Part shown: positions 3,489 through 21,565 of the stretch, one piece after another
How positions within the stretch are numbered: position 1 is the first letter of the stretch
How the letters are laid out: every line of letters starts with the position of its first letter
IMG/VR virus record: IMGVR_UViG_3300027881_000100
Location: 1 to 21,565 of that record
Length of the DNA: 21,565 nt
Origin: a virus
Strand: one strand, 5' to 3'
Program-made: the position numbers and the translations under genes
Notes under the pieces: model-generated
The model's input: the letters and a program-made list of their open reading frames with translations, nothing else
The model's database searches: none
Told to the model about the DNA's origin: nothing

Positions 3489-4312
3489 TGCGCGAAGGAA
3501 TGGAAAAGAAGTTGATGTTGGACTTGTTAAAGCATCCTGCACAGGTGTTTTACAAGGACGAAACACTTGTGGTTCTAATTCCTAGCACTGACGAATCATT
3601 TGTCTATCACTTGACTGGCGCACATGGCTATTCTAACTCAGGGCCAACAGCAATTAGGCTCCGAAACGACGACGAAAAGTATGTAATCCAAACTCGCAAA
3701 AATGAAAGGTTTTTGCTCCGTTTAACTGAAACAGGTTGGAAGCAACACTCATTCATGTTTGAATACACACCAAATAATTATGGTGACTTTGGTATTATTA
3801 AGCGTTATCCATCCCTCAAAAATGCCTTTGAAGAAAGGGCAAAAACGATGGGATATTTGCCTATGATTAATGATCCAACTGAAGATGACATAAAGATAGC
3901 ACTCAAAAATTCTGCCGAGAACATTCGTCATGTTAAGAACTTGACCGAAGCAAAGAAACGCAAATACATTAAAGAATTTCCGCGCACCTTTGAGTACATG
4001 CAACAAAATCCAGCATTGGTCAAGTATGCGATGGAAAATACAGACATTACGTTGGGTGAAATCTCATCAACGTATTGCAGCGCAAGTATCTGTAAAATGG
4101 GGATCAAAAAGAATGCGCATGATCTGAAATATGTGCCTAATCACCACAAAACAGACGATATGATAATGCATGCTATCAGGCAAGATCCAGGTGTTATCAA
4201 AGACCTTAGACACCCCACAATGAAAATGTATGTGGCCGCAGTTAAGGCTGGAAAGAACGGCTGGGAGATGGTTCCTGACAGTTTGAGAAAGAAAGTGAGG
4301 AAGGCACTATGA
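3488..4312 (+). CDS. hypothetical protein (274 aa) with helical repeat-like C-terminal half
   Basis: The start at 3488 forms a TAATG with the preceding stop. An in-frame ATG at 3467 would overlap the neighbour by 22 nt, and another at 3500 is also possible. Residues 1 to about 115 look like a beta-rich domain (YKDETLVVLIPS, EKYVIQTRKNERFLLRLTETGW). From about 130 the protein is helical with loosely repeated units (IKIALKNSAENIRHVKN, NPALVKYAMENT, KKNAHDLKYVPN, DDMIMHAIRQDPGVIKDL, MYVAAVKAGKNGWEMVP) that recall DUF4116-type repeats. The repeat assignment is tentative. It overlaps the next gene by ATGA. Confidence 0.75.
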   Translation: MREGMEKKLMLDLLKHPAQVFYKDETLVVLIPSTDESFVYHLTGAHGYSNSGPTAIRLRNDDEKYVIQTRKNERFLLRLTETGWKQHSFMFEYTPNNYGDFGIIKRYPSLKNAFEERAKTMGYLPMINDPTEDDIKIALKNSAENIRHVKNLTEAKKRKYIKEFPRTFEYMQQNPALVKYAMENTDITLGEISSTYCSASICKMGIKKNAHDLKYVPNHHKTDDMIMHAIRQDPGVIKDLRHPTMKMYVAAVKAGKNGWEMVPDSLRKKVRKAL

Positions 4313-4659
4313 AGTGTCCCGTGTGCATAAGCGAGGACAAGAAAAGCAGGGTTTATCCCGTCAACAACAAGGAATATTTATGTTGGGATGAGCGAGGAAA
4401 TCTTTGCTATAGTGAGCCAGCCACACGATTTGAGTGTAGTAACGGGCATGAGGTATGTTTACTATCAGCATTTGATGATGATGCTTGGAAAGCACTTGAG
4501 GATCTAAACAGAATACAAAATATGATGTTTACGCGCAAAAAGGAATCCAGGCAGTTCCATAAAAAGATTTGTGCGGCACTTGATGCTGGCGAATCAGTAA
4601 CATTATGGTATACTGATGAAGATGGTAACATTGTGCATTTTGGAGATGATAATGAGTAA
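4309..4659 (+). CDS. putative zinc-ribbon protein (116 aa)
   Basis: The N-terminal half carries a likely zinc site: C3-x2-C6 and C43-x3-H47-x2-C50, plus C25 and C33. The remainder (about 55-116) is a charged helix followed by a short beta tail (SVTLWYTDEDGNIVHFGDDNE). The start overlaps the previous stop (ATGA) and has AGGAAGG just upstream. Small phage zinc ribbons often bind nucleic acid or host RNA polymerase, but nothing here decides between those roles. Confidence 0.7.
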   Translation: MKCPVCISEDKKSRVYPVNNKEYLCWDERGNLCYSEPATRFECSNGHEVCLLSAFDDDAWKALEDLNRIQNMMFTRKKESRQFHKKICAALDAGESVTLWYTDEDGNIVHFGDDNE

Positions 4660-4864
4660 ACGTAAACTGATAGTTGATGGACACGAATACGAATATCGAG
4701 TAGGTCGTGCGCATGTTGTTATTCGTCGCGACGGAAGAAAAGTTGCGGCGCCTGGTTTTCACGAAATAACAGGCGAATCATGGAGCGTAATTGAACACGA
4801 TACGCACAAACGTAATTTTCATATAACACCAAGTCAGGTAGAAGATTACATACGTGGCTTATGA
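4652..4864 (+). CDS. hypothetical protein (70 aa)
   Basis: The start is the ATG at 4652 (MSKRKLIVDGHEYEYRVG), which has GGAG at 4642-4645 at 6 nt and overlaps the previous gene by 8 nt. An upstream in-frame ATG at 4616 would lie well inside that gene with no ribosome site. The sequence reads as a small beta-sheet domain (RKLIVDGHEYEYRVGRAHVVIRRDG) with a short helix at the end, rich in His and Arg. It overlaps the next gene by ATGA. Function unknown. Confidence 0.65.
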   Translation: MSKRKLIVDGHEYEYRVGRAHVVIRRDGRKVAAPGFHEITGESWSVIEHDTHKRNFHITPSQVEDYIRGL

Positions 4865-5321: not shown

Positions 5322-5564
5322 ATGAGAATTTTATTCGCACTTATAGCATTAGTTACACTAAACGGCTGTGAATCTCTCGGTGAGGTTATTCGGGAGAAAA
5401 AGTACACAGTCAATCTACATGAAACGGAAAATGCAAAGCACAAATTTGGATACGATGATGACAACAAGTACATCGGTTACATCGTTACTGGCGAATTTGG
5501 CGCAAGAATCTATAAGCACGAACATTCCACGTATTGTCATCCTGGTTCCACTCCAGGAAAATAA
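5322..5564 (+). CDS. small lipoprotein (80 aa)
   Basis: A type II signal peptide is visible: MRILFALIALVTLNG followed by the lipobox cysteine C16 (LNGC), then a mature polar domain of about 65 residues beginning ESLGEVIREKKYTVNL. Maturation by the host lipoprotein pathway would anchor it in the inner or outer membrane. The start has a perfect UAAGGAGG 6 nt upstream. The leader peptide is clearly similar to that of the next gene (MRILF...GCE), so the two probably arose by duplication or share a mobile leader. Phage lipoproteins are used for superinfection exclusion or as outer-membrane spanins. Neither role is shown here. Confidence 0.8.
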   Translation: MRILFALIALVTLNGCESLGEVIREKKYTVNLHETENAKHKFGYDDDNKYIGYIVTGEFGARIYKHEHSTYCHPGSTPGK

Positions 5565-5649: not shown

Positions 5650-6129
5650 ATGCGTATTTTATTTGTATTAGCAGCACTATTTGCCTTAGCAGGATGCGAA
5701 AATATGGAGTGGACAGTTGTATCGGACAGCGGCCATAACTATTATCATCCGCACGGTCATATCAGTTATACGTTAGGCTATTATAGTGGCAGTCATTATA
5801 ATGGCTATTCAGTATATGGTTCGCATGGTCATAGATATTATTACGCACCGCGCTATTATTCTCATCACCGCTACTATTCTGCCCCACCTGTAGTCGTCGT
5901 ACATCAACATGTACACACTTCTAGGTGCTATGTAAGGGGTGGTCATAGTTATGTTGCTCCTCGTTACACCCCACCTGCAGTAACACCTCGCCATCGTCGC
6001 ACACCACCCGCAGTAACACCTAATCGCACACCACCTCGTGCAGTTCCGCCCCAGGTTCGCAATGATCGACGCGAAGATCGACAAGATCGTAACGACAGAC
6101 GACGTAACCCAAAACAAAAGCGTAAGTAA
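5650..6129 (+). CDS. His/Tyr-rich lipoprotein with Pro-rich and Arg/Asp-rich tail (159 aa)
   Basis: Signal peptide MRILFVLAALFALAG with lipobox LAGC (C16). The mature part is of extremely low complexity in three blocks: a His/Tyr/Gly/Ser region (about 25-95) with HGH and YY motifs; a Pro/Thr region (about 108-137) with a repeated PPAVTP; and a charged tail (about 138-159) of alternating Arg/Asp/Asn. Such a protein should be a surface- or periplasm-exposed lipid-anchored polymer-like chain. Its proline content recalls Rz1-type outer-membrane spanins, but length and histidine content do not, and no inner-membrane partner is adjacent. Metal binding by the histidines is conceivable. Confidence 0.8.
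   Translation: MRILFVLAALFALAGCENMEWTVVSDSGHNYYHPHGHISYTLGYYSGSHYNGYSVYGSHGHRYYYAPRYYSHHRYYSAPPVVVVHQHVHTSRCYVRGGHSYVAPRYTPPAVTPRHRRTPPAVTPNRTPPRAVPPQVRNDRREDRQDRNDRRRNPKQKRK
5971..6021 (+). repeat. 33-nt spaced direct repeat in the lipoprotein gene
   Basis: The 18-mer CCACCTGCAGTAACACCT at 5971-5988 recurs with a single change at 6004-6021, a period of 33 nt. A third, degenerate CCACCTCG unit follows at 6031. It encodes the PPAVTP repeats. Confidence 0.75.
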
Positions 6130-7178: not shown

Positions 7179-7421
7179 ATGCCAAAAGCAAAATTTAGAG
7201 AAGGAAGATACGGGAAAGGAATTCCCCGTGTGTACAAGTTTAAGCTAGGAAACAGAAAGAGCAGCATATCTGCACACTCAGTTTCATCAACAGAATTGTT
7301 AGAAATGTATAATTCTGGAAAGCGCCCGAAGGATAAACCAAAAATTGCGCAGGTTTTGTTTTTGCGTGGCATAAACTTAGCTGAACCCTTCGTAGAAGAG
7401 GAAGCACAACCTATAGAATGA
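7179..7421 (+). CDS. hypothetical basic protein (80 aa), early expressed
   Basis: An 80-residue protein with a basic N-terminal half (PKAKFREGRYGKGIPRVYKFKLGNRKSS) and an acidic last ten residues. Residues about 25-65 (VYKFKLGNRKSSISAHSVSSTELLEMYNSGKRPKDKPKIAQVLFLRG) are likely beta-helix. The ATG has AGGA at 7167-7170 with 8 nt spacing and lies about 30 nt behind a consensus host promoter, pointing to early expression. It overlaps the next gene by ATGA. No family recognised. Confidence 0.75.
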   Translation: MPKAKFREGRYGKGIPRVYKFKLGNRKSSISAHSVSSTELLEMYNSGKRPKDKPKIAQVLFLRGINLAEPFVEEEAQPIE

Positions 7422-7876
7422 AGATTACAGAAGTTGTTACACCACATCCAGCAGTAGCGGCGGAAGTCGAATTTACTAATCTGCTACAATCAGGCGAAGA
7501 TCGTATGGACGATATGGTTGCATTTGTTATGGATGATAGAATTGCAGACGCCCGTCGTCTGCATATTCTTAGGCGCATAGATGAATTACTTGGTGATCTC
7601 AAGGATCATTATGATGCATCCGACCTTGATGATTTTATGAATGATCCAGGCGAAATTTCTCCTGAAGAAGCAGACGAAATAGCACGAGATATGCGTTTGC
7701 CACCATATCATTTACAATCCGTAGATGAAACAGAAGACGATGAGACACCAACAGGCGAATATGAAATTTGCCAACGTTGTGGCGGAGCGGGTTGTATCGA
7801 ATGCGAAGAAGGCTTAAAAGATATTACTGGCATGCACAAAATTCCCGACTTTGACAAATACAACGATCCTAAATAG
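7418..7876 (+). CDS. acidic protein with DnaJ-like zinc knuckle (152 aa)
   Basis: An acidic, mainly helical protein (helices about 13-65 and 80-93) ending in a cysteine cluster C118-x2-C121-x4-C126-x2-C129 (CQRCGGAGCIEC). This has the CxxCxGxG style of DnaJ zinc knuckles, but only one compact unit. It begins with an ATGA overlap on the previous gene and has no clear Shine-Dalgarno, so translation is probably coupled. Similar knuckles recur in the large protein encoded at 16342-19554, suggesting exchange of a zinc module within this phage. The stop (AAATAG) is two bases from the -35 of the kinase promoter. Confidence 0.75.
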   Translation: MKITEVVTPHPAVAAEVEFTNLLQSGEDRMDDMVAFVMDDRIADARRLHILRRIDELLGDLKDHYDASDLDDFMNDPGEISPEEADEIARDMRLPPYHLQSVDETEDDETPTGEYEICQRCGGAGCIECEEGLKDITGMHKIPDFDKYNDPK

Positions 7877-7937: not shown

Positions 7938-8618
7938 ATGCTCATCGGACTTCTCGGTCGCATTGGTTCTGGCAAAGGAACTGTAGCAGACGAACTTGTA
8001 AACAAATATGGCTTCCGCCAAGACAGCTACGCATACGCCCTAAAAGACATGACTGCATTCCTATTTAATTGGGATCGCAGTATGCTTGAGGGTGATACAA
8101 TTGAGAGCCGCAGTTCAAGAGAACAAATCGACGAGTGGTGGTCAAAAAAATTAGGCATTCCTGAATTTACTCCCCGATTAGCATTGCAATTGATTGGTAC
8201 AGACGTATTTCGTAATAATTTTCATCAAGACATTTGGGTGTTGAGTGTTATAGCACGTTACAAAGAAGGCGATAACGTAGTAATAAGTGATTGCAGGTTT
8301 CCAAATGAAGTTCAAGCAATCCGTCAAGTAGGCGGACGTATTATTCAAGTTGATCGTGGTTTTGAACCCGAATGGTGGACTTGTGCTAAAGAAGCTGCAA
8401 GCGGTGTTCCAGAAGCAATAGAACAAATGGATGAACACTATAATATTCATGCAAGTGAATGGGCTTGGGCTAATCAAATCCCAGATGAGTTAATCCATAA
8501 TGATGGAACGCTCAACGAACTGTATGGTATGGTTAAATTATTGGATAACAGGTATGGGTTTAATACTAAAACAACTTATAGCCCCGATGATCCAGTTGGA
8601 ACCGAATATATATTTTAG
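7938..8618 (+). CDS. 1: deoxynucleoside monophosphate kinase, T4 gp1-type (226 aa)
   Basis: This enzyme phosphorylates dNMPs (in T4: dGMP, dTMP and hydroxymethyl-dCMP) with ATP and supplies precursors for phage DNA synthesis in the cytoplasm. The P-loop is visible at residues 7-15 (GRIGSGKGT). The family blocks TPRLALQLIGTDVFRNNFHQDIWV (78-101) and DCRFPNEV (118-125) follow, with a lid-like basic region between. Length is close to T4 gp1 (241 aa). AAGGA at 7927-7931 is 6 nt before the ATG. It has its own strong sigma-70 promoter, consistent with early nucleotide metabolism, yet lies amid late structural genes. The 3' end overlaps the convergent endonuclease gene by 4 nt. Confidence 0.85.
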   Translation: MLIGLLGRIGSGKGTVADELVNKYGFRQDSYAYALKDMTAFLFNWDRSMLEGDTIESRSSREQIDEWWSKKLGIPEFTPRLALQLIGTDVFRNNFHQDIWVLSVIARYKEGDNVVISDCRFPNEVQAIRQVGGRIIQVDRGFEPEWWTCAKEAASGVPEAIEQMDEHYNIHASEWAWANQIPDELIHNDGTLNELYGMVKLLDNRYGFNTKTTYSPDDPVGTEYIF

Positions 8619-9268
8619 TCTGATTCGATATAACGTTTGATAGTTGTGCGCGACACGCCATAATCCCTAGATAATTGACTAACAGTAGTACCGTTCTCGT
8701 ACTGCTCTATAATTTTAGTTCGACCTTCTTTGTTTACAGCCTTTACTTGTTTGCGTCCACATTTCTTTGAGAGTACTTCCTTCTGTTTTTGGCCTTCGGG
8801 TGAAGCCCAAAACTCTTTCATCTTTTCAGATTGCTTTTGTCGTGCTACTTTCCCTTCTTCTGTTTGAAAAAATGCTTTTTTGTTGTTGCTTATGGCTTTT
8901 TTGTAATCATATGATCGACCGACGTTTATCGGTGTTAATTTAATCAAATCCAAATCTTCCAAAGAAATATTTGATTTAAATACTAGATCCTCGCCACCTC
9001 TAGTACCGTTGTAACCACCATTAAACGTATTATTCTCCTCGATGTGTTTCATCTCTAAGAGATTAGCATCGACTCTTGTCTCACATTTTTCTAATATTTC
9101 CCATTTCCAACAACTTTCATCGTATTTTCGTAATGCATTATGAAATTGTACCGTAGAACCGCCACGCACACTAACAAGATGCCGTGCCTTTCGTTCTTTG
9201 AGTGTTTTAGACGTAAGCCCAACATAGGATTTGTTGGTGACGTTGTTTGTAGCTCTATATATAATCAT
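8615..9268 (-). CDS. GIY-YIG homing-type endonuclease (217 aa)
   Basis: The catalytic domain matches I-TevI residue by residue in spacing: Y4 (IIY), Y15 (YVG), R26, H30, E72 and N87 (GYNGT) correspond to Y6, Y17, R27, H31, E75 and N90 of I-TevI. Residues about 125-170 carry a NUMOD3-like basic segment (SEKMKEFWASPEGQKQKE). The last 30 residues (TTVSQLSRDYGVSRTTIKRYIES) form a resolvase-like helix-turn-helix for DNA binding. All catalytic residues are present, so it looks active. It is the only minus-strand gene here, lies between two phage genes like T4 Seg enzymes, and probably spreads by cleaving related phages near this site. Its start lacks a Shine-Dalgarno and sits 8 nt behind a minus-strand late box. 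Confidence 0.9.
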   Translation of the reverse strand: MIIYRATNNVTNKSYVGLTSKTLKERKARHLVSVRGGSTVQFHNALRKYDESCWKWEILEKCETRVDANLLEMKHIEENNTFNGGYNGTRGGEDLVFKSNISLEDLDLIKLTPINVGRSYDYKKAISNNKKAFFQTEEGKVARQKQSEKMKEFWASPEGQKQKEVLSKKCGRKQVKAVNKEGRTKIIEQYENGTTVSQLSRDYGVSRTTIKRYIESD

Positions 9269-14243: not shown

Positions 14244-14685
14244 TAGAACCAGTAAACAAATAACCAAATTCTTGGGCGCAGAAATTACTGCTAGAAATAC
14301 TGGCGGCGGACTACGTAACACTTTTAAGAATAATTTAGGTGGTGAGCGCACTCGTCAACCAGATGCAATTCGCGGCTCTACTAGTGATTTTGAAGCAGGC
14401 TCACTCAATATTGGCGACTATGAAGCAGCACTAATGTACATGCAAAATAATGGCGCACAACCATTGGCAGCAAAGGCTATGGCACTTGTTTTGGTCGATG
14501 TAGCAAAGGCACAGGGAGTAGGTGTTAACACGTTACTAAGTAATTCGGACGCCGTTGCAGTTGCATTGAATAGCACCGAAGCATACACATATATTAATCA
14601 ACTTAGGGGCGGCAGTTCGCAACTTAGCGGTTCAGATACAATAGATAATTCAAAGAGTTTGCGCAGTCGTTATTTGGTAGCATAA
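14233..14685 (+). CDS. probable structural protein of unknown role (150 aa)
   Basis: Several in-frame starts exist (ATG 14206, ATG 14227, GTG 14233). The GTG is preferred because GGAG at 14223-14226 is 6 nt upstream, the same spacing used by several genes in this window. The protein has a basic Gly-rich N terminus (about 1-45), a helical Ala-rich middle (LAAKAMALVLVDVAKAQGV) and ends DTIDNSKSLRSRYLVA. It lies between a tail-tube-like gene and gp4, with overlaps on both sides (11 nt; TAATG), so it is very probably a late virion or assembly protein. The Arg-Tyr-hydrophobic C terminus may be a docking tail. Not assigned. Confidence 0.65.
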   Translation: MVVNRTSKQITKFLGAEITARNTGGGLRNTFKNNLGGERTRQPDAIRGSTSDFEAGSLNIGDYEAALMYMQNNGAQPLAAKAMALVLVDVAKAQGVGVNTLLSNSDAVAVALNSTEAYTYINQLRGGSSQLSGSDTIDNSKSLRSRYLVA

Positions 14686-15134
14686 TGGCAAGACGTAAGA
14701 AGTATAACAGTGGTGTATACACACCATCGTACCCAGAAAAGTATAAAGGCACACATGCACCACGCTACAGAAGTAGTTGGGAGTTACAGCTATTCCGTTT
14801 GGCTGATATGCACCCCAACATAGTAAGCTGGGCAAGTGAAGCCATCAAAATACCATACTATAATCCTATAACTAGAAAAGCGGCAATGTATACGCCTGAC
14901 GTATTGATGGTATTTGAAGACAAGAACGGCAATCGCCGCAACGAGCTTATTGAGATTAAGCCGAGCAAGCACACTCACCTCGAAGAAGCAAAAACTGCAT
15001 ATGATAGGGCACAATTTGCTATTAACGTAGCAAAATGGAAAGCCGCACAAGAGTTTTGTAAAAATCATGGTATGACTTTCCGTGTAATTAACGAAAATCA
15101 AATCTTCCGAACCAAGAAAAAGAAAAAGAAATAA
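14685..15134 (+). CDS. 4: head completion protein, T4 gp4-type (149 aa)
   Basis: T4 gp4 (also called gp50) is needed to finish DNA-filled heads, and its family has a TnsA/restriction-endonuclease-like core. Length is essentially that of T4 gp4 (150 aa). The nuclease motif is visible: E33 (SSWELQLF), D72 (YTPDVLMVF) and E90-x-K92 (ELIEIKPSK). The N terminus MARRKKYNSGVYTPSYPEKYKG and poly-Lys C terminus suggest DNA contact. The ATG overlaps the preceding stop (TAATG). All PD-(D/E)xK residues are intact, so catalytic capacity, perhaps trimming DNA ends after packaging, is plausible. Confidence 0.88.
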   Translation: MARRKKYNSGVYTPSYPEKYKGTHAPRYRSSWELQLFRLADMHPNIVSWASEAIKIPYYNPITRKAAMYTPDVLMVFEDKNGNRRNELIEIKPSKHTHLEEAKTAYDRAQFAINVAKWKAAQEFCKNHGMTFRVINENQIFRTKKKKKK

Positions 15135-15155
15135 TCATTCCACTAGTCTTTTGAT

Positions 15156-15163
15156 GATAAATA
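15156..15163 (+). promoter_or_regulatory. late promoter box GATAAATA directly abutting the gp16 start
   Basis: GATAAATA followed by CAATT and then ATG (15169): a gap of exactly 5 nt, which places T4-type +1 on the A of the start codon. No Shine-Dalgarno. Confidence 0.7.
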
Positions 15164-15168
15164 CAATT

Positions 15169-15672
15169 ATGACTAAGAACTTAGAAGAGGCGTTTGATTT
15201 GCCACCCATTAAAGAGGCAATCGCAAAACAGAAGGGTGAAATAATTGTTGAGACGAAGCACACTCCCGAAGAAGCATTGGCGGAGTCTGCTAGAATTCTT
15301 AAAGCACTTACTATTACCGAAAAAGTTGACCATGCCTTGACAACTGTGGATAATATTAACGAACATGATATTGAAATGGATGATATTGCTCAAGAAGCAC
15401 TTGAGTCTTACACAGAACTAAAAGAACTAGGCATGAATATGTCCGATGCACACAGTGGACGTATGATGGAAGTAGCAGCATCTATGCTAAAGACCGCGCT
15501 TGACGCTCGCTCTGCAAAAATGGAGCGTAAACTAAAAACCATTGATCTACAGTTAAAGAAGTTGCGTATTGATAAAATGAATGGTAGAGAAAACGATCCA
15601 AATGACGACACCCCTGAATTTGACCGCAATGAGCTATTAAAGCACATATATATCCAGCGCGAAGAGGAATAA
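15169..15672 (+). CDS. 16: small terminase subunit, T4 gp16-type (167 aa)
   Basis: Forms the ring that recognises or feeds DNA to the large terminase gp17 and regulates its ATPase. The N-terminal LEEAFDLPPIKEA is the short element typical of gp16 proteins of T4-like phages. The rest is helical, with MSDAHSGRMMEVAASMLKTALDARSAKMERKLKTIDLQLKKLRI (about 98-140) forming the coiled-coil oligomerisation region. Size matches T4 gp16 (164 aa). Chosen start: ATG 15169. An in-frame ATG at 15154 lies before the promoter box and would be excluded from the late transcript. Unusually, it is not next to gp17: two genes (about 3.8 kb) intervene. Confidence 0.72.
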   Translation: MTKNLEEAFDLPPIKEAIAKQKGEIIVETKHTPEEALAESARILKALTITEKVDHALTTVDNINEHDIEMDDIAQEALESYTELKELGMNMSDAHSGRMMEVAASMLKTALDARSAKMERKLKTIDLQLKKLRIDKMNGRENDPNDDTPEFDRNELLKHIYIQREEE

Positions 15673-15731: not shown

Positions 15732-16352
15732 ATGACATCAGTATTTAAAGAGTATTATTTGGTAGAATCTGCAAAAGAATACAAGTATCGTATTAAGCTT
15801 GCAGTAAATGACCTATCCACAGATCAAAAGGCTGCGCTAGAAAATGCGCTAGCTAAGTTTGATGTACGATCAGTAGGCCAGTTCACACAATCACCAATTC
15901 AACAATCCCCGCTTGATTTTCCTAATGTACGCAACGCACAGGTATATACAACAGAAGTTGTCCTCGGTTATCCAGTAACAGTTGATACACTTCGTGTATT
16001 CCTTAGCGATAAAATTTCTATTAACCAGCAAGAGATTGCAGTATATAATGAGTATGATCCTCGCGACGCCTACAATGATGAAGCACTTCTTATTACAGCA
16101 GGCAAAGATGAAAATTACGTTACATCACTAGGTAACGAGTATCTTCCTGACGAAAAACCTGCTTATGGCGCAGAGTATAATGAAAAGTTCCTAAAAGAAC
16201 TTGACGACATTAAAAAAGAACGCCCAGTAGTAGAAGTTGAAAATCCGCTAATGCAGAAAACAAAGGTTGACAACACTAGTGTAGCACCAAGAGATGTTGG
16301 CGAAGCGGGTGGTGATAGCGTACTAGGTGGAAAAGGGACAGATGGCCCATAA
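15732..16352 (+). CDS. unknown late protein (206 aa), candidate internal head protein
   Basis: A two-part protein. Residues about 18-110 are a structured domain (YKYRIKLAVNDLSTDQKAALENALAKFDVRSVGQFTQ... VYTTEVVLGYPVTVDTLRVFLSDKI), which reads as a ferredoxin-like alpha/beta fold with two beta-alpha-beta units. Residues about 115-206 are acidic and disordered, ending GGDSVLGGKGTDGP. The N terminus MTSVFKEYYLVE-SAKEY contains L-V-E before Ser, compatible with prohead-protease processing. Late promoter and Shine-Dalgarno are good. It overlaps the following giant gene by 11 nt, so the two are coupled and may form a pair. Not recognised. Confidence 0.75.
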   Translation: MTSVFKEYYLVESAKEYKYRIKLAVNDLSTDQKAALENALAKFDVRSVGQFTQSPIQQSPLDFPNVRNAQVYTTEVVLGYPVTVDTLRVFLSDKISINQQEIAVYNEYDPRDAYNDEALLITAGKDENYVTSLGNEYLPDEKPAYGAEYNEKFLKELDDIKKERPVVEVENPLMQKTKVDNTSVAPRDVGEAGGDSVLGGKGTDGP

Positions 16353-19300
16353 TCCTAACATGCGCGATCTTCTTATGATTGCTGAGTCTTATACTCAGAA
16401 TCTGATGGAAGAATTTGCAATAGAGCCGACTCCTGCGAGAGGCATAATGTCGGACACACCTGTAGACGATCCGTTTCGTGATACAGAGCCTGCACTACCG
16501 TTAGAGCTTACTGCACTAACAGATGTGCCTGGTTTGTACATGAAGAAAGGTGATAAGCTTTACGTTGAGCCAACTACTAATCATGGCGAAGTGTACAGCG
16601 AAGAAAATGGTATGACATATGATTGGGATTGGATTTCTAGTTTTTCTGAACGTGGTATGCTTAGTGTTAACCCTGTTGAAGGCGAGAAAGATCCTGTAGA
16701 AGTACCGTTTGTTGAAGATGCAGGAGAACAACAAGAATGTGCATGGTGGGCACTATGCACAAATGATGCGACAACAACTGAGCCGCATCCTGTACTTGGC
16801 GAAGTACCTATTTGCGATAGATGTGTAGACAAGCTACGTAAGATTGAAGGACTTGACGAAGAAGAATTAGAAGAGCCAGGCCCAGAATGCACATATTGTG
16901 ATGACGAGGAGCCGCTAGATGGTTTCCCATGTTTGAACTGTGGCAGCAAACAGTTTGTTGGTGAAGCAGGCGATCCAGACGATACAGATTGGGACGCACA
17001 TTGGGCTAGAGAAGATGGCGACGATGAACGCGCAGATGATCTTGAAGCAGATGCAGAATGGGCGCGCATGGATGATGAACTAAACGAAGCAGCAACACGC
17101 AAAGATTTTCGTATGGTCGCTGATCTTATTTCTAAGATCGAAGACCCTGCATTACGTCAATCATCTGCGGAAGATCATGCACGTATGTTTGCACTACAGA
17201 ATCCGCGCTTCAATGCTACGCTATTTTATGCGGCAGCAGGCGCAGAGGAACCACTTGATGAAGATATAAATGCAGGTGCAGATGCAGGGGGAGAATTACT
17301 ATATCCGCCAACCGTATATGATGGTGAAGGCAACGAACATCCTTACAGTATCTACTACGACACAATGAAAAATTATAGCGTAGGCGATACAGTTACAAGT
17401 TCTGCAGCGGCACCAGGATACGGCAAGATCAGTCATCGTATTACACGCATGGACGACACTGGTGTATATGGCGTAGAGACCGAAAATACAATCCAAGAGC
17501 TTGAGCCCTGGATGGTAGAAGATGAGAATGATGCACGAGGAAAGATGTGTCCAGTATGCACAGGCGGACGACGCGAAGGTTATGGAAGAGATTGTCCGAA
17601 CTGTAATGGCGAAGGTTACGTAACAGAAGCAGGCAAGCCTTACGCAACAATGAAAGACGGACCAGATAAATATTTGTTCCGCAAAGACGGCAGACAAAAA
17701 CTTGTAGGCTCAGCAAATAACGAAGTAGATACAGACGAAGAAACGTGTAACGATTGTTTGGGCGTGGGCACTGATGAGATGTTTAATACTTGCTATAGCT
17801 GCGGCGGATCAGGTATTGTAGCAAAACAAGAATTAGAAGATCTTTGTGCATGGTGCCACGGTGATCATGAAGAATACGGGTGTTTAGAAATGCCTTGGGG
17901 TGATGCTGATGACTTTGAAGTAGACGACGAAGGTTACGTTTACTTTTATGATCCAAAGGGAACACGAAAAGAGACGCCAGAATGGAAAATGTTAGAGTTA
18001 GAAGAAAGTCGTTTCCAGTATGAAGTAGATGGCTACGGCTATGAAGAAGAGGAAGATTGGCCATTTGATAATGATGAGCCAAGTAAAAAATGGCACTATA
18101 TGACTACACCAAGCGGCGAACGCGTTACACTAGATCATTCACCGTATCAAACAATGGACAAAAACGAATTTGCAGCGCATGTTGCAAAACATAGAGGCAT
18201 AAAAGAAATGACTATGGATAAAGAAATTAGAGAAATGCAAATCGCAGCAGGCATTGTTGTTGAAGAAGAAAAATGTGAACAGTGTGCAGATTGCAAATGT
18301 GATCCTTGCGAATGCGAAGAAGCAGTTGAAGAAGGCAAGTTGCCTGATGCTCTCAAGCAACACCAATTCGGCAAGAAAGATGATGACAAGGAAGAAGTCG
18401 ATGAAGAATCTTGCGACGAAGATGCTGATATTAAAGAGATGCAGATCGCAGCAGGTATCATCGTTGCTGAAGATTGCTCCGAAGAAGATGAAGAAAATGA
18501 CGACGGCGAATGCAGTCCATTCACTCATGCTGACGACAACGTTAAGATGGTACGCGAAGAAGAACTAGACGAAGGCGGAGACATTGTTAAAGCCCTCATG
18601 AAAATGGGCAAGCAAAAGCTATGGATAGAATATAATCGCGCAATGGAAGATGACGGCGCACCTACTAAGCATCTAATTGCTATGAAGCAAGCACTTTCTA
18701 ATCTTGGCGTTGATATTGTAGACGAAGACATGCTACTTGCACCACCTGGCGACGTTGGCCCAGGTGTAGACGAAGATGATTTCGACAGAGTTGAGCCTGA
18801 ACTAGATCGACAAACAGATTTCAATGCGCCGCCTCGTGATGATGGTGATGACAGTTACGATATGAACGAAGAACCAAACGATAATGAGCGCATTATTGAT
18901 GTTGGCGACGACGAAGATTATGAAAAATATGATTTTGATGATGAGTTTGAACAGATGCTAGGTGGTTCAAGCGATATGCCAGGAGCGGAGTATAACGGTA
19001 TGTATGAAATGAATGAACTACGCAGGCTTGCAGGCCTCGAACAGTTGGAAGAGAAAGATGTTGTTGATGGACAAGATGTAGCAGACGGCGAAGATGAGGA
19101 AGTTGAAGTTGACGAAGCTATTGCTGCAGGTCCTCAGATAGCTTCTGATGAAATAGTTGCATATGAAGTTGGAGATGAGAAAGCATACTATGTAATGGCT
19201 GACCTACTAGGCGCAGAACTAGACTTTGGCCCACAAGATGAGGTTCTTATTCCCAAAGCGCGTCAGGACGAAATAGAGCATGAGTTAGATATGCAGGGAT

Positions 19301-19554
19301 TTGTACAAGGCAGAGATTTTGCAGTAGCAGGTCAAATGTTTGATGACCTACAAAATGGATATGATGATCGAGCATTTACAAAAGGTTCAGATTACTTCCC
19401 AGGTGGAGCTACAAGTAGTCCTTCAAATGAGCTTGGCCCAGCAGGTGCGAAGCAAGGCGACAACCCAATGCGCACATCAATGATTTCTGTAGACAAAGAA
19501 GACGAAATTTACGAAAGCATGAAGCTTTCTTATCGCAGGCATCGCCGAGCGTAA
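16342..19554 (+). CDS. giant acidic multi-zinc-knuckle mosaic protein (1070 aa)
   Basis: No known family covers it. The ATG at 16342 has AAGGGA just upstream and an 11-nt overlap with the previous gene (GTG 16327 is an alternative). The protein is extremely Asp/Glu-rich. Cysteine clusters: C133-C139/C158-C161; C183-C186/C197-C200; DnaJ-like C403-C406/C418-C421 (CPNCNGEG) and C469-C472/C484-C487 (CYSCGGSG); C502-C505/C514; and a dense C645-C658 cluster of six. Residues 253-300 form a small helical domain ending NPRFNATLFYAAAG. Short motifs IREMQIAAGIVV (629), IKEMQIAAGIIV (697) and MNELRRLAGL (890) recur. A basic tail YRRHRRA ends it. MRDLLMIAE-S (7-16) resembles a capsid-targeting peptide. 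It is a late protein between gp16 and gp17, possibly scaffold, internal head or packaging accessory. Confidence 0.8.
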   Translation: MAHNPNMRDLLMIAESYTQNLMEEFAIEPTPARGIMSDTPVDDPFRDTEPALPLELTALTDVPGLYMKKGDKLYVEPTTNHGEVYSEENGMTYDWDWISSFSERGMLSVNPVEGEKDPVEVPFVEDAGEQQECAWWALCTNDATTTEPHPVLGEVPICDRCVDKLRKIEGLDEEELEEPGPECTYCDDEEPLDGFPCLNCGSKQFVGEAGDPDDTDWDAHWAREDGDDERADDLEADAEWARMDDELNEAATRKDFRMVADLISKIEDPALRQSSAEDHARMFALQNPRFNATLFYAAAGAEEPLDEDINAGADAGGELLYPPTVYDGEGNEHPYSIYYDTMKNYSVGDTVTSSAAAPGYGKISHRITRMDDTGVYGVETENTIQELEPWMVEDENDARGKMCPVCTGGRREGYGRDCPNCNGEGYVTEAGKPYATMKDGPDKYLFRKDGRQKLVGSANNEVDTDEETCNDCLGVGTDEMFNTCYSCGGSGIVAKQELEDLCAWCHGDHEEYGCLEMPWGDADDFEVDDEGYVYFYDPKGTRKETPEWKMLELEESRFQYEVDGYGYEEEEDWPFDNDEPSKKWHYMTTPSGERVTLDHSPYQTMDKNEFAAHVAKHRGIKEMTMDKEIREMQIAAGIVVEEEKCEQCADCKCDPCECEEAVEEGKLPDALKQHQFGKKDDDKEEVDEESCDEDADIKEMQIAAGIIVAEDCSEEDEENDDGECSPFTHADDNVKMVREEELDEGGDIVKALMKMGKQKLWIEYNRAMEDDGAPTKHLIAMKQALSNLGVDIVDEDMLLAPPGDVGPGVDEDDFDRVEPELDRQTDFNAPPRDDGDDSYDMNEEPNDNERIIDVGDDEDYEKYDFDDEFEQMLGGSSDMPGAEYNGMYEMNELRRLAGLEQLEEKDVVDGQDVADGEDEEVEVDEAIAAGPQIASDEIVAYEVGDEKAYYVMADLLGAELDFGPQDEVLIPKARQDEIEHELDMQGFVQGRDFAVAGQMFDDLQNGYDDRAFTKGSDYFPGGATSSPSNELGPAGAKQGDNPMRTSMISVDKEDEIYESMKLSYRRHRRA

Positions 19555-19617: not shown

Positions 19618-21201
19618 ATGGCACAATTAGACCTAGAGTTAATCAAAAAAGCGCATACTAAAGTCAAGTATACGCCCGAAATGGCGGACGAACTTATGCG
19701 TTGTACTGATCCTGATAAGGGTCCGATGTACTTTATGGAAAACTTTATGATGATCCAACATCCAACTAAGGGTCGTATAAAGTTTAAGCCGTATGACTAT
19801 CAAAGAGAATTGTGTCAAGTATATAACGATCATAGATACTCTATTGCAATGATTGGTCGCCAGTTAGGCAAGACCACACTAGCAGCAGGCTACCTACTTT
19901 GGTACGCAATGTTTATACCTGACTCAACAATCCTAGTAGCAGCACACAAACGCGACGGTGCAACAGAAATTATGCAACGTATTCGTTTTTGTTATGAAGA
20001 ATTGCCCGATCATATTCGTGCAGGTGTTGCTGAGTACAACAAACAAAGCCTAACATTTGACAATGGCTCACGTATCATCTCACAAGCAACGACACCAACT
20101 ACAGGTCGTGGTCTTGCTCTATCACTTGTGTACTTGGATGAGTTTGCATTCGTTTCACCAAACGTAGCAAGGGAATTCTGGACTGCTATTTCACCAACAC
20201 TATCAACAGGTGGTAAATGTATTATTACTTCTACGCCTAACGTTGATGATGACCAGTTTGCACAAATTTGGTTCGAGTCTCAGAACAAACTTGACGAGTT
20301 TGGTAACGAACGTGAGAGTGGCGAGGGCGCTAATGGGTTCTGCGGCTACCACGCTACATGGGAAGCACATCCTGATAGAGATGAAGAGTGGGCAAGACAA
20401 GAACGTGCTAAGACAAGCGACGATCAGTTCAAACGTGAGCATGAATGTCAGTTTATCTCTTTCCAAGAGACACTTATCAACTCTGCGAAGCTTGCATTCC
20501 TTAGCGAGAACGGAATGATACCAAGTCGCAAGACAGGACAAGTACGCTGGTACGATAAAATCCGAGATGGCAAATCTTATTGTGTTGCACTAGATCCTAG
20601 TATGGGTACTGGTGGCGATAATGCTGCTATACAAATATTGCAGCTACCTGAAATGAGACAAATCGGAGAATGGCAACACAACCACAGTATTGTTGAAGAA
20701 CAAGTAAAAATTCTTCGAGGTATATTGATGGAAATAGAGCATCACGCACCTAAGTCTGACATTTATTGGACTGTAGAGAACAATACAATGGGTGAAGCGG
20801 CCCTTGTTGTTATACGTGACACTGGTGAAGACAGATTCCCAGGCACGTTCATGCATGACCCTAACCGACACCTTGGCCCTAAGAAGCGTAAGGGTTACAA
20901 CACAACTCATCGCACTAAGCTTGAGGCGTGTGCTAAGTTTAAGGGTCTAGTTGAAAACGAGAAGCTTGAGATACGCAGTCGCAACCTTATTCACGAACTC
21001 AAATACTTTATTTCTAAAGGCAACACATTTGAGGCAGCTATTGGTGAATCTGATGATCTAGTTATGTCTATGCTACTCAATGTACGCATGGCACAGCATA
21101 TTGCACAATGGGATGGTGACCTTGAAGGGCACATGAACAGTGGTGTAGCTGGTAAATTTGAAGAGGCTATTGAGGAGCCTCTCCCAATGCTCTTACTTTA
21201 A
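19618..21201 (+). CDS. 17: terminase large subunit, T4 gp17-type (527 aa)
   Basis: The ATP-driven DNA packaging motor and headful nuclease, docked on the portal. ATPase: Walker A GRQLGKTT at 80-87 (K85), Walker B LVYLDE with D174-E175 and the coupling motif ITSTPN (about 200-205). Nuclease (RNase-H fold): D326 (ALDPSMGTGGD), E387 (TVENN) and D479/D480 (GESDDLVMS) give the metal triad. It is shorter than T4 gp17 (610 aa), mainly at both ends. The start has no Shine-Dalgarno but sits 5 nt behind a late box. All catalytic residues look intact. Transcription is isolated from upstream by a hairpin terminator. Confidence 0.95.
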   Translation: MAQLDLELIKKAHTKVKYTPEMADELMRCTDPDKGPMYFMENFMMIQHPTKGRIKFKPYDYQRELCQVYNDHRYSIAMIGRQLGKTTLAAGYLLWYAMFIPDSTILVAAHKRDGATEIMQRIRFCYEELPDHIRAGVAEYNKQSLTFDNGSRIISQATTPTTGRGLALSLVYLDEFAFVSPNVAREFWTAISPTLSTGGKCIITSTPNVDDDQFAQIWFESQNKLDEFGNERESGEGANGFCGYHATWEAHPDRDEEWARQERAKTSDDQFKREHECQFISFQETLINSAKLAFLSENGMIPSRKTGQVRWYDKIRDGKSYCVALDPSMGTGGDNAAIQILQLPEMRQIGEWQHNHSIVEEQVKILRGILMEIEHHAPKSDIYWTVENNTMGEAALVVIRDTGEDRFPGTFMHDPNRHLGPKKRKGYNTTHRTKLEACAKFKGLVENEKLEIRSRNLIHELKYFISKGNTFEAAIGESDDLVMSMLLNVRMAQHIAQWDGDLEGHMNSGVAGKFEEAIEEPLPMLLL

Positions 21202-21236: not shown

Positions 21237-21565
21237 ATGATAAACTACGATAAAGTAGCAGAGAAAATTTTTGCAATCATCAAGGGCTTTGGGTATGATC
21301 TATCCTTGTTCACTATTGATGGCATGGACACATCTATTCCATCAGATGGTCGACGCTTTTACGTAAAGAAGCCGAACTTCATGGTAACACTCGATGAAGA
21401 AACCGACGAAATCAAAATAAATAAAAATAGCCGCGTTACCCTTGAGGAAATCGAGAGCGTAATGAAGCAGCTAAAGAACCTAGCCAAGCAGAACTTACTT
21501 AATACTCAAGTCAAAGTGTTCGGCAAGGAAATCACTCCTAAAGATTTCGCATATCAAGCCAAAAA
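21237..21565 (+). CDS. unknown late protein, N-terminal part (3' partial)
   Basis: An open frame of 109 residues runs off the right edge. It starts MINYDKVAEKIFAIIKGFGY, with AGGAG at 6 nt spacing (21227-21231) behind a strong late box. The visible part reads as helix, then beta strands (FYVKKPNFMVTLDEETDEIKI), then a helix (LEEIESVMKQLKNLAKQNLL), then QVKVFGKEITPKDFAYQAKK. I recall similar N termini (a beta stretch with 'DEE..EI.i', then 'FGK.i.PKDfayQ') in long unnamed proteins of marine T4-like phages near the terminase and structural genes. The function is unknown and most of the gene is outside the window. Confidence 0.75.
   Translation, partial: MINYDKVAEKIFAIIKGFGYDLSLFTIDGMDTSIPSDGRRFYVKKPNFMVTLDEETDEIKINKNSRVTLEEIESVMKQLKNLAKQNLLNTQVKVFGKEITPKDFAYQAK

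Follow-up and report, generated by a model that had tools for sequence, protein, structure and literature searches.

A scaffold-tail motif in a variable acidic zinc-knuckle protein encoded beside the large terminase gene of a T4-like phage suggests an internal-head protein

The window analysed here is an entire virus record (IMG/VR record IMGVR_UViG_3300027881_000100, 21,565 bases). The gene under study is an open reading frame (ORF) on its plus strand, at 16342-19554, which starts with ATG and encodes an acidic protein of 1070 residues. It occupies the slot directly upstream of the gene for the large terminase subunit (TerL) and downstream of a gene for 206 residues, the position of the slot-gene family, and its product is called here the slot protein. 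The product of the slot gene is probably an internal-head (prohead-core) protein in a phage of the T4-like jumbo type, tethered by natural tags that repeat the tail of the scaffold. This reading is carried by a motif of 12 residues, x-E-phi-x-x-[LMI]-x-x-[LA]-A-G-[IL], which occurs in three copies in the slot protein (residues 627, 695 and 888). Judged by its sequence, this motif is what the gp22-type scaffold of the clade carries at its extreme C-terminus; it is short and looks helix-like and amphipathic.

The origin of the motif can be traced in the Pseudomonas jumbo phage PA5oct, where a loose LAG pattern is found in four ORFs: the slot gene (twice), EST35_0235, an ATPase and EST35_0153. 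The last of these is flanked by the gp21-like protease gene and the major capsid gene and ends in ...VEELRRLAGIK; homologues of it carry the annotation scaffolding protein in MIJ3, BF, 7t3 and 121Q ("T4 gp22-like" in 121Q). EST35_0153 has no mass spectrometry (MS) label, as would be expected if the scaffold is degraded. Among 80 IMG/VR loci retrieved with the PA5oct capsid protein (many are near copies, giving about 17.5 effective distinct tails), 75 have the strict pattern at the end of the gene that immediately precedes the major capsid gene, and the other five have close variants. The scaffolds of Sinorhizobium phage Phosso and Agrobacterium phage Atu_ph07 end in ELRRLAGIEK and DLKRLAGIKK, and RaK2-like phages have a diverged end (LSILSGIIKK, ISQLSGINKKR). 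The slot protein is not itself a scaffold of the T4 gp22 type: it has the tail motif alone in common with it, and neither full-length homology nor the position before the capsid gene. No description of a scaffold-tail motif common to head cargo was found in the literature searched, in which subscription journals were thinly covered. As a separate observation, some jumbo scaffolds are labelled "DNA double-strand break repair Rad50 ATPase" (MF403008 AUZ94996.1; PV764938 XYS97496.1; the scaffold gene of PP408249), probably a coiled-coil misannotation.

A profile was built from 46 scaffold tails, with no slot sequences included. The null consisted of whole-protein maxima over 1500 shuffles of slot proteins (99% point 12.3, top 19.7), and the match threshold of at least 15 was set after it had been seen. 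Comparison of slot ORFs with the other plus-strand ORFs of TerL loci, duplicates removed, gives 78 matches in 24,231 residues against 6 in 138,436. Of these six, four lie in the gene that follows TerL, and another is probably in a wrongly assigned slot gene; the reduced set holds 74 matches against 2. With 200 column-permuted profiles the mean number of slot-ORF matches is 0.26 (maximum 10), and the reversed profile gives none. The matches stand at a protein terminus in 51 of 74 cases, where about 11% are expected, and the others are internal. This distribution bears on whether the motif, rather than being a targeting tag, could be a generic element required by scaffold and slot proteins for some other purpose, such as an oligomerisation helix, a degron or a docking site for the protease. 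Scaffold and slot proteins are probably substrates of one protease and the element is short and amphipathic-looking, as such an element might be; however, the scaffold copy is fixed at the C-terminus, the coat-binding part in P22, and the slot-protein copies stand at either terminus or inside, as a portable tag would. The generic element is considered unlikely.

Searched genome-wide, PA5oct, G009, G010 and G016 give their best matches in the scaffold and the slot gene, joined by one or two others. The further motif genes are PA5oct 155221-155847 (EST35_0235, annotated as detected by electrospray ionisation tandem MS, ESI-MS/MS), G016 168045-168620 and 187631-189100, G012 276749-277399, G009 3825-4775 and G010 92836-93705; on the strength of the motif they are additional candidates for head cargo. 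Compared by eye in three genomes, slot motifs and the scaffold tail of the same genome showed no pattern of covariation.

The motif copies and the other parts of the slot protein are as follows (all on the plus strand; ↓ marks a candidate cleavage point):
16342-19554, +: slot protein, acidic mosaic of 1070 residues (ORF and relatives)
16360-16389, +: N-terminal helix MRDLLMIAE↓S, resembling the capsid targeting sequence (CTS) of T4, with a candidate prohead-protease site, hydrophobic-x-E↓S (sequence likeness, relatives)
16735-16824, +: zinc-knuckle module ECAWWALC...VPICDRC, residues 132-161 (phrog_15221, E=6.7e-13)
16888-16965, +: zinc-knuckle module CTYCDDEEPLDGFPCLNCGSKQFVGE, residues 183-208 (88% identical copy in L002)
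17080-17241, +: helical-looking RKDF...NPRF module, residues about 247-300 (shuffled position in L001, L015, L018 and L020)
17548-17604, +: CxxC / CxxCxGxG knuckle, residues 403-421 (sequence)
17746-17802, +: DnaJ-like double CxxCxGxG knuckle, residues 469-487 (sequence)
18220-18255, +: scaffold-tail motif copy 1, KEIREMQIAAGI, residues 627-638 (profile score 14.9)
18274-18315, +: Cys-rich CEQCADCKCDPCEC, residues 645-658 (sequence)
18424-18459, +: scaffold-tail motif copy 2, ADIKEMQIAAGI, residues 695-706 (profile score 17.2)
19003-19038, +: scaffold-tail motif copy 3, YEMNELRRLAGL, residues 888-899 (profile score 25.6)
19147-19371, +: conserved small C-terminal alpha/beta domain, residues about 936-1010 (alignment of relatives, AlphaFold2)
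19372-19551, +: conserved tail LQNGYDDR..DYFPGG..SP..LGPAGAKQGDNPM...IYE↓SMKLSYRRHRRA, including, close to the C-terminus, another candidate protease site (alignment of relatives)

An earlier note, made from the window's sequence, had described an acidic, multi-cysteine frame of 1070 residues, and composition and cysteine counts bear this out. Asp plus Glu amount to 25.6% and Lys plus Arg to 8.7%, with an isoelectric point (pI) of 4.08 and a net charge of about -180; the 28 cysteines form 11 CxxC pairs against 0.72 expected from shuffles (maximum 5 among 2000). The six cysteine clusters that it had counted are found at residues about 133-161, 183-200, 403-421, 469-487, 502-514 and 645-658, the third and fourth being of the CxxCxGxG type, and its helical module, recurring short motif (EMQIAAGI / NELRRLAGL) and basic C-terminal tail (YRRHRRA) are likewise present. 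An alternative GTG start at 16327 would add five residues. The slot ORF is a genuine gene. The ratio of non-synonymous to synonymous substitution rates (dN/dS) is 0.21-0.33 in four pairs of slot genes, and the coding frame is under purifying selection. A frameshift fusion specific to this isolate, which the note had named as a possible refutation, is ruled out because related contigs hold long intact frames in the same slot. Searches of Pfam, NCBIfam and PDB sequences, which gave no full-length family match, agree with its statement that nothing matches the full architecture; the statement does not hold more widely, as relatives exist and a PHROGs search returns short matches, all to single knuckles. 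The DnaJ central domain PF00684 (four CxxCxGxG repeats) gave no Pfam match in the slot protein, and the L004 relative scores 18.1 bits against it, below the gathering cutoff of 32.7. The AlphaFold2 model of the C-terminal domain has the order beta-alpha-beta-alpha-beta (mean predicted local distance difference test score, pLDDT, 62, rising to about 80 where it is folded). It has only the general look of a small ferredoxin-like alpha/beta domain, and a fold search with it gave no significant match (best E 0.07).

In T4, internal proteins enter the prohead via an N-terminal CTS, and cleavage by gp21 takes place after L/I-x-E (PMC9026906); giant phages have related signals, and their propeptides resemble the T4 CTS only partly (PMC5694885). 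As a sequence pattern only, the N-terminus of the slot protein, MRDLLMIAE↓S, fits the T4 CTS-type (L/I)-x-E, and the relatives read MRELLMIAE↓S (L004), IRELKAIVE↓S (L001) and IRELRAIVE↓S (L015). The candidate site near the C-terminus is IYE↓SMK, with V/I-YE↓[SG] in most relatives. Sites of this kind could also belong to a polyprotein, in which the protease cuts at hydrophobic-x-E↓[AGS] between modules and frees many small peptides, zinc-knuckle and acidic ones, in the head. Module ends that read YVTE↓A, FVGE↓A, AVFE↓S, EMFE↓G and IIE↓S are consistent with it, as are a like candidate site in the capsid protein of the clade (YLAE↓SATAG) and the cleavage of the T4 core proteins gp22, gp67 and gp68 in this manner (PMC9026906). 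Site counts do not support the polyprotein, however: the slot protein has 9 sites against 6.9 in shuffles (p=0.26), and the strict site pattern is enriched only in L015 (p=0.016) and L018 (p=0.002). We regard it as distinctly unlikely, and a head protein that may be trimmed near both ends is preferred. Residues about 41-60 of the PA5oct slot protein EST35_0203, VEETASAGASSAGGIASVA, resemble the presumed mature N-terminus of the PA5oct capsid protein, LVENASAGATQAGNIATIN; this may be chance.

The neighbours of the slot gene in the window are:
about 15151-15672: small-terminase-like gene, weakly supported
15732-16352, +: upstream partner gene (KEYxYRIK gene), 206 residues, N-terminal CTS-like helix (PA5oct orthologue EST35_0202)
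19618-21201, +: large terminase subunit, TerL, gp17-like (58% identical to PA5oct)
21237-21563, +: gene downstream of TerL, N-terminus only, cut at the contig end; virion structural protein (phrog_13484)

Among cultured phages, TerL comes closest to that of PA5oct (58% identical), followed by those of Phosso (52%) and Atu_ph07 (49%). The order KEYxYRIK gene, variable acidic gene, TerL recurs in IMG/VR contigs, PA5oct and Phosso, and a variable acidic gene fills the slot across a wide clade of T4-like, mostly jumbo, phages. PA5oct has the small-terminase-like gene, EST35_0202 (KEYxYRIK), EST35_0203 (498 residues, acidic), TerL, EST35_0205 and EST35_0206; the slot of Phosso holds an acidic protein of 404 residues, and that of Atu_ph07 (AUZ94908) the smallest version seen, of 113 residues, which starts MDIERLKILAGLE and contains ADNPMM. 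Because these slots are filled alike, the slot gene is a clade-wide gene in the form of this phage and not an odd insertion between gp16 and gp17. The earlier claim that it splits the terminase pair is thus correct as to place, but the order is the conserved one of the clade, with two genes (the 206-residue gene and the slot gene) between small-terminase-like gene and TerL gene. EST35_0203 (QCG76084.1) resembles the slot protein in its slot, its acidity, two LAG[IV] motifs and a common C-terminal region (BLASTP E=3e-4; NDYFPNG...GPSSAKSGDN against SDYFPGG...GPAGAKQGDN). It differs in being half as long, with one small Cys cluster only and almost none of the modules. This conserved region (LQNGY..FP.G....GDNPM..) is present in the slot protein and strong in close relatives. 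Marine slot proteins of the L029 type had no match in cultured phages, and for the L083 type only a 41-residue piece was matched, in an uncultured 735-kb phage.

Virion location comes from the record annotation of the positional homologue in PA5oct, not from the window phage: EST35_0202, 0203, 0205 and 0206 are annotated there as structural, ESI-MS/MS. No characterisation of EST35_0203 beyond this annotation was found. The earlier note had proposed a virion-associated protein that may act as a scaffold, and both ideas gain support, the first from this annotation and the second from the scaffold-tail motifs. Another of its proposals was a packaging accessory factor; such a factor might work with the terminase, for example as a portal or terminase cofactor. 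The slot gene does adjoin TerL in all loci examined, which is the sole evidence for this role. By contrast, in PA5oct the slot protein has an MS label and TerL has none, scaffold-tail motifs indicate assembly and not the motor, and the minimal form in Atu_ph07 retains only the motif, DNPM and a short remainder. A packaging role is very unlikely.

For the targeting, processing and payload function of an internal-head protein we infer the following course. During prohead assembly the scaffold-tail copies would bind the scaffold tail's own partner, either the core or the capsid shell on its inner face, and through this binding the slot protein would be built in as prohead cargo. Trimming by the prohead protease at hydrophobic-x-E sites close to each end might follow, and some part of the slot protein, at the least, would remain in the mature head. 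The zinc knuckles and other mini-domains, a freely exchanged set interspersed with the tags, the conserved C-terminal domain and the acidic linkers, would be the payload; they probably serve as binding modules, either in the head or, once ejected, in the host. The P22 scaffold binds coat through its C-terminus, and cargo fused to this part is taken into capsids in vivo (PMC9962691), which suggests that the LAG motif may bind the partner of the scaffold tail and bring the slot protein in.

The P22 tag is similar in that a scaffold C-terminus takes unrelated proteins into procapsids (PMC9962691). It differs in consisting of engineered fusions of a helix-turn-helix unrelated in sequence, whereas the tag of the slot protein appears natural. 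The T4 internal head proteins (IPI, IPII, IPIII and Alt) are core cargo with a short peptide signal and a hydrophobic-x-E protease site near the N-terminus, the role proposed here for the slot protein. In contrast to their N-terminal CTS, the proposed tag here copies the C-terminus of the scaffold, frequently more than once per protein, and the protein itself is large and modular; no sequence homology to them was found. The T4 core proteins gp22, gp67 and gp68 are comparable, on the reading proposed here, as acidic (gp67), core-associated substrates of the prohead protease; unlike the slot protein, gp22 is without a LAGI tail, and the slot protein has zinc modules and does not adjoin the capsid gene.

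The presumed payload is extensively shuffled. The slot relatives L001, L004, L009, L015, L018, L020 and L021 hold common blocks in differing order: residues 21-176 of the slot protein align with L001 166-325 and residues from 245 onwards with L001 from 102, so that the order is swapped. Constant among them are the C-terminal domain with its tail and the LAG motif. Motif copies 1 and 2 (EMQIAAGI) form a DNA repeat of 47 nt, 79% identical. Residues 183-208 are 88% identical to residues 91-116 of an L002 protein whose gene is unrelated and lies in another neighbourhood (L002:5749-7557, 602 residues, beside Hsp20, ClpS, FtsH and ClpP genes). The same knuckles recur in this protein, so the modules move among three or more genes. 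Another zinc-knuckle mosaic is found in the gene downstream of TerL (L012:2020-4650, L013:2748-4730, L009:6030-9620, L022:2613-4769), and all four relatives end in C..C.G.G...GEGYV or a close form. A stretch 83% identical to knuckle 128-168 occurs in this gene in L022 and L009, a block of 153 residues is 52% identical between it and the L002 gene, and L012 and L013 have the LAGL motif in it; its PA5oct counterpart, EST35_0206, is among the products annotated ESI-MS/MS. Small mycobacteriophage proteins contain pieces 58-63% identical to knuckle module 132-161. The small phage proteins of PHROG 15221 / 31194 (mycobacteriophage Giles gp44 and others) are homologous to the knuckle at residues 126-168, but cover only about 4% of the slot protein. 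As free-standing small proteins, the RKDF...NPRF and WHY...SPY modules had no match in cultured phages. A further small acidic ORF in the window, 7418-7876, has a zinc-knuckle-like end, CQRCGGAGC.

Such turnover could reflect an ejected anti-defence factor, whose acidic stretches mimic DNA and whose knuckles bind host factors, delivered with the DNA like IPI of T4. This proposal is compatible with head cargo and concerns a job after entry; DNA mimicry, which the earlier note had raised, is a possible role. A net charge of about -180 with a pI of 4.1, rapid module turnover between close relatives, as in an arms race, and virion location are consistent with it. However, no anti-restriction or counter-defence domain was found in general domain searches (PADLOC was not searched), and acidity could equally serve core assembly, as in the C-terminal Asp/Glu run of T4 gp67. 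As the specific function we hold it to be improbable, to about the same degree as the generic element.

Several observations weigh against the slot protein being scaffold-tagged head cargo. T4 gp22 is without a LAGI tail, and the window record, a 21.6-kb fragment, has no scaffold gene, so the scaffold tails are those of other phages. Some slot proteins of the clade are without a strong motif; in G012 the slot copy reaches only 12.7, against high scores for the scaffold and one further gene. Homology to PA5oct is weak outside the motif (E=3e-4). In PA5oct, the small neighbour EST35_0201 and the terminase have no MS label, and the MS list also holds ribonucleotide reductase, thymidylate synthase and FtsH; because of these enzymes it is not a list of purely structural proteins. 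A broader proposal, held tentatively and at somewhat less than even chances, is that T4-like jumbo and aquatic phages generally load cargo by a natural, portable scaffold-C-terminus tag, by which quickly reshuffled mini-domain proteins enter the head, with the pre-terminase slot as the main cassette that assembles new cargo from zinc knuckles and further modules common to several head genes. The choice of head proteins by jumbo phages is largely open, the T4 CTS being the classic example. A motif common to the scaffold tail and head-cargo candidates would be a simple sorting code, from which new internal head proteins might be predicted by sequence only, and suggests a ready-made encapsulation tag. 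The head-cargo reading would also explain the hypervariable, unannotated pre-terminase gene in many environmental phages.

Other features of these genomes were noted in passing. The TerL match in G015:108152-110698 (L211, L212, L215) is split by an in-frame insertion within an open frame of 854 residues, probably an intein. In the window, 14685-15134 encodes a TnsA-like endonuclease N-terminal domain (PF08722, E=4.7e-21) whose position is kept in relatives and which is possibly a head-completion nuclease. A free-standing GIY-YIG homing endonuclease with a helix-turn-helix (HTH) lies at 8615-9268 on the minus strand, immediately upstream of the tail sheath gene; in PA5oct a Hef-like homing endonuclease closely follows the sheath gene on its downstream side. 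Two adjacent ORFs, 5322-5564 and 5650-6129, have lipoprotein-like signal peptides (LNGC, LAGC), and His, Tyr and Arg are very frequent in the second.

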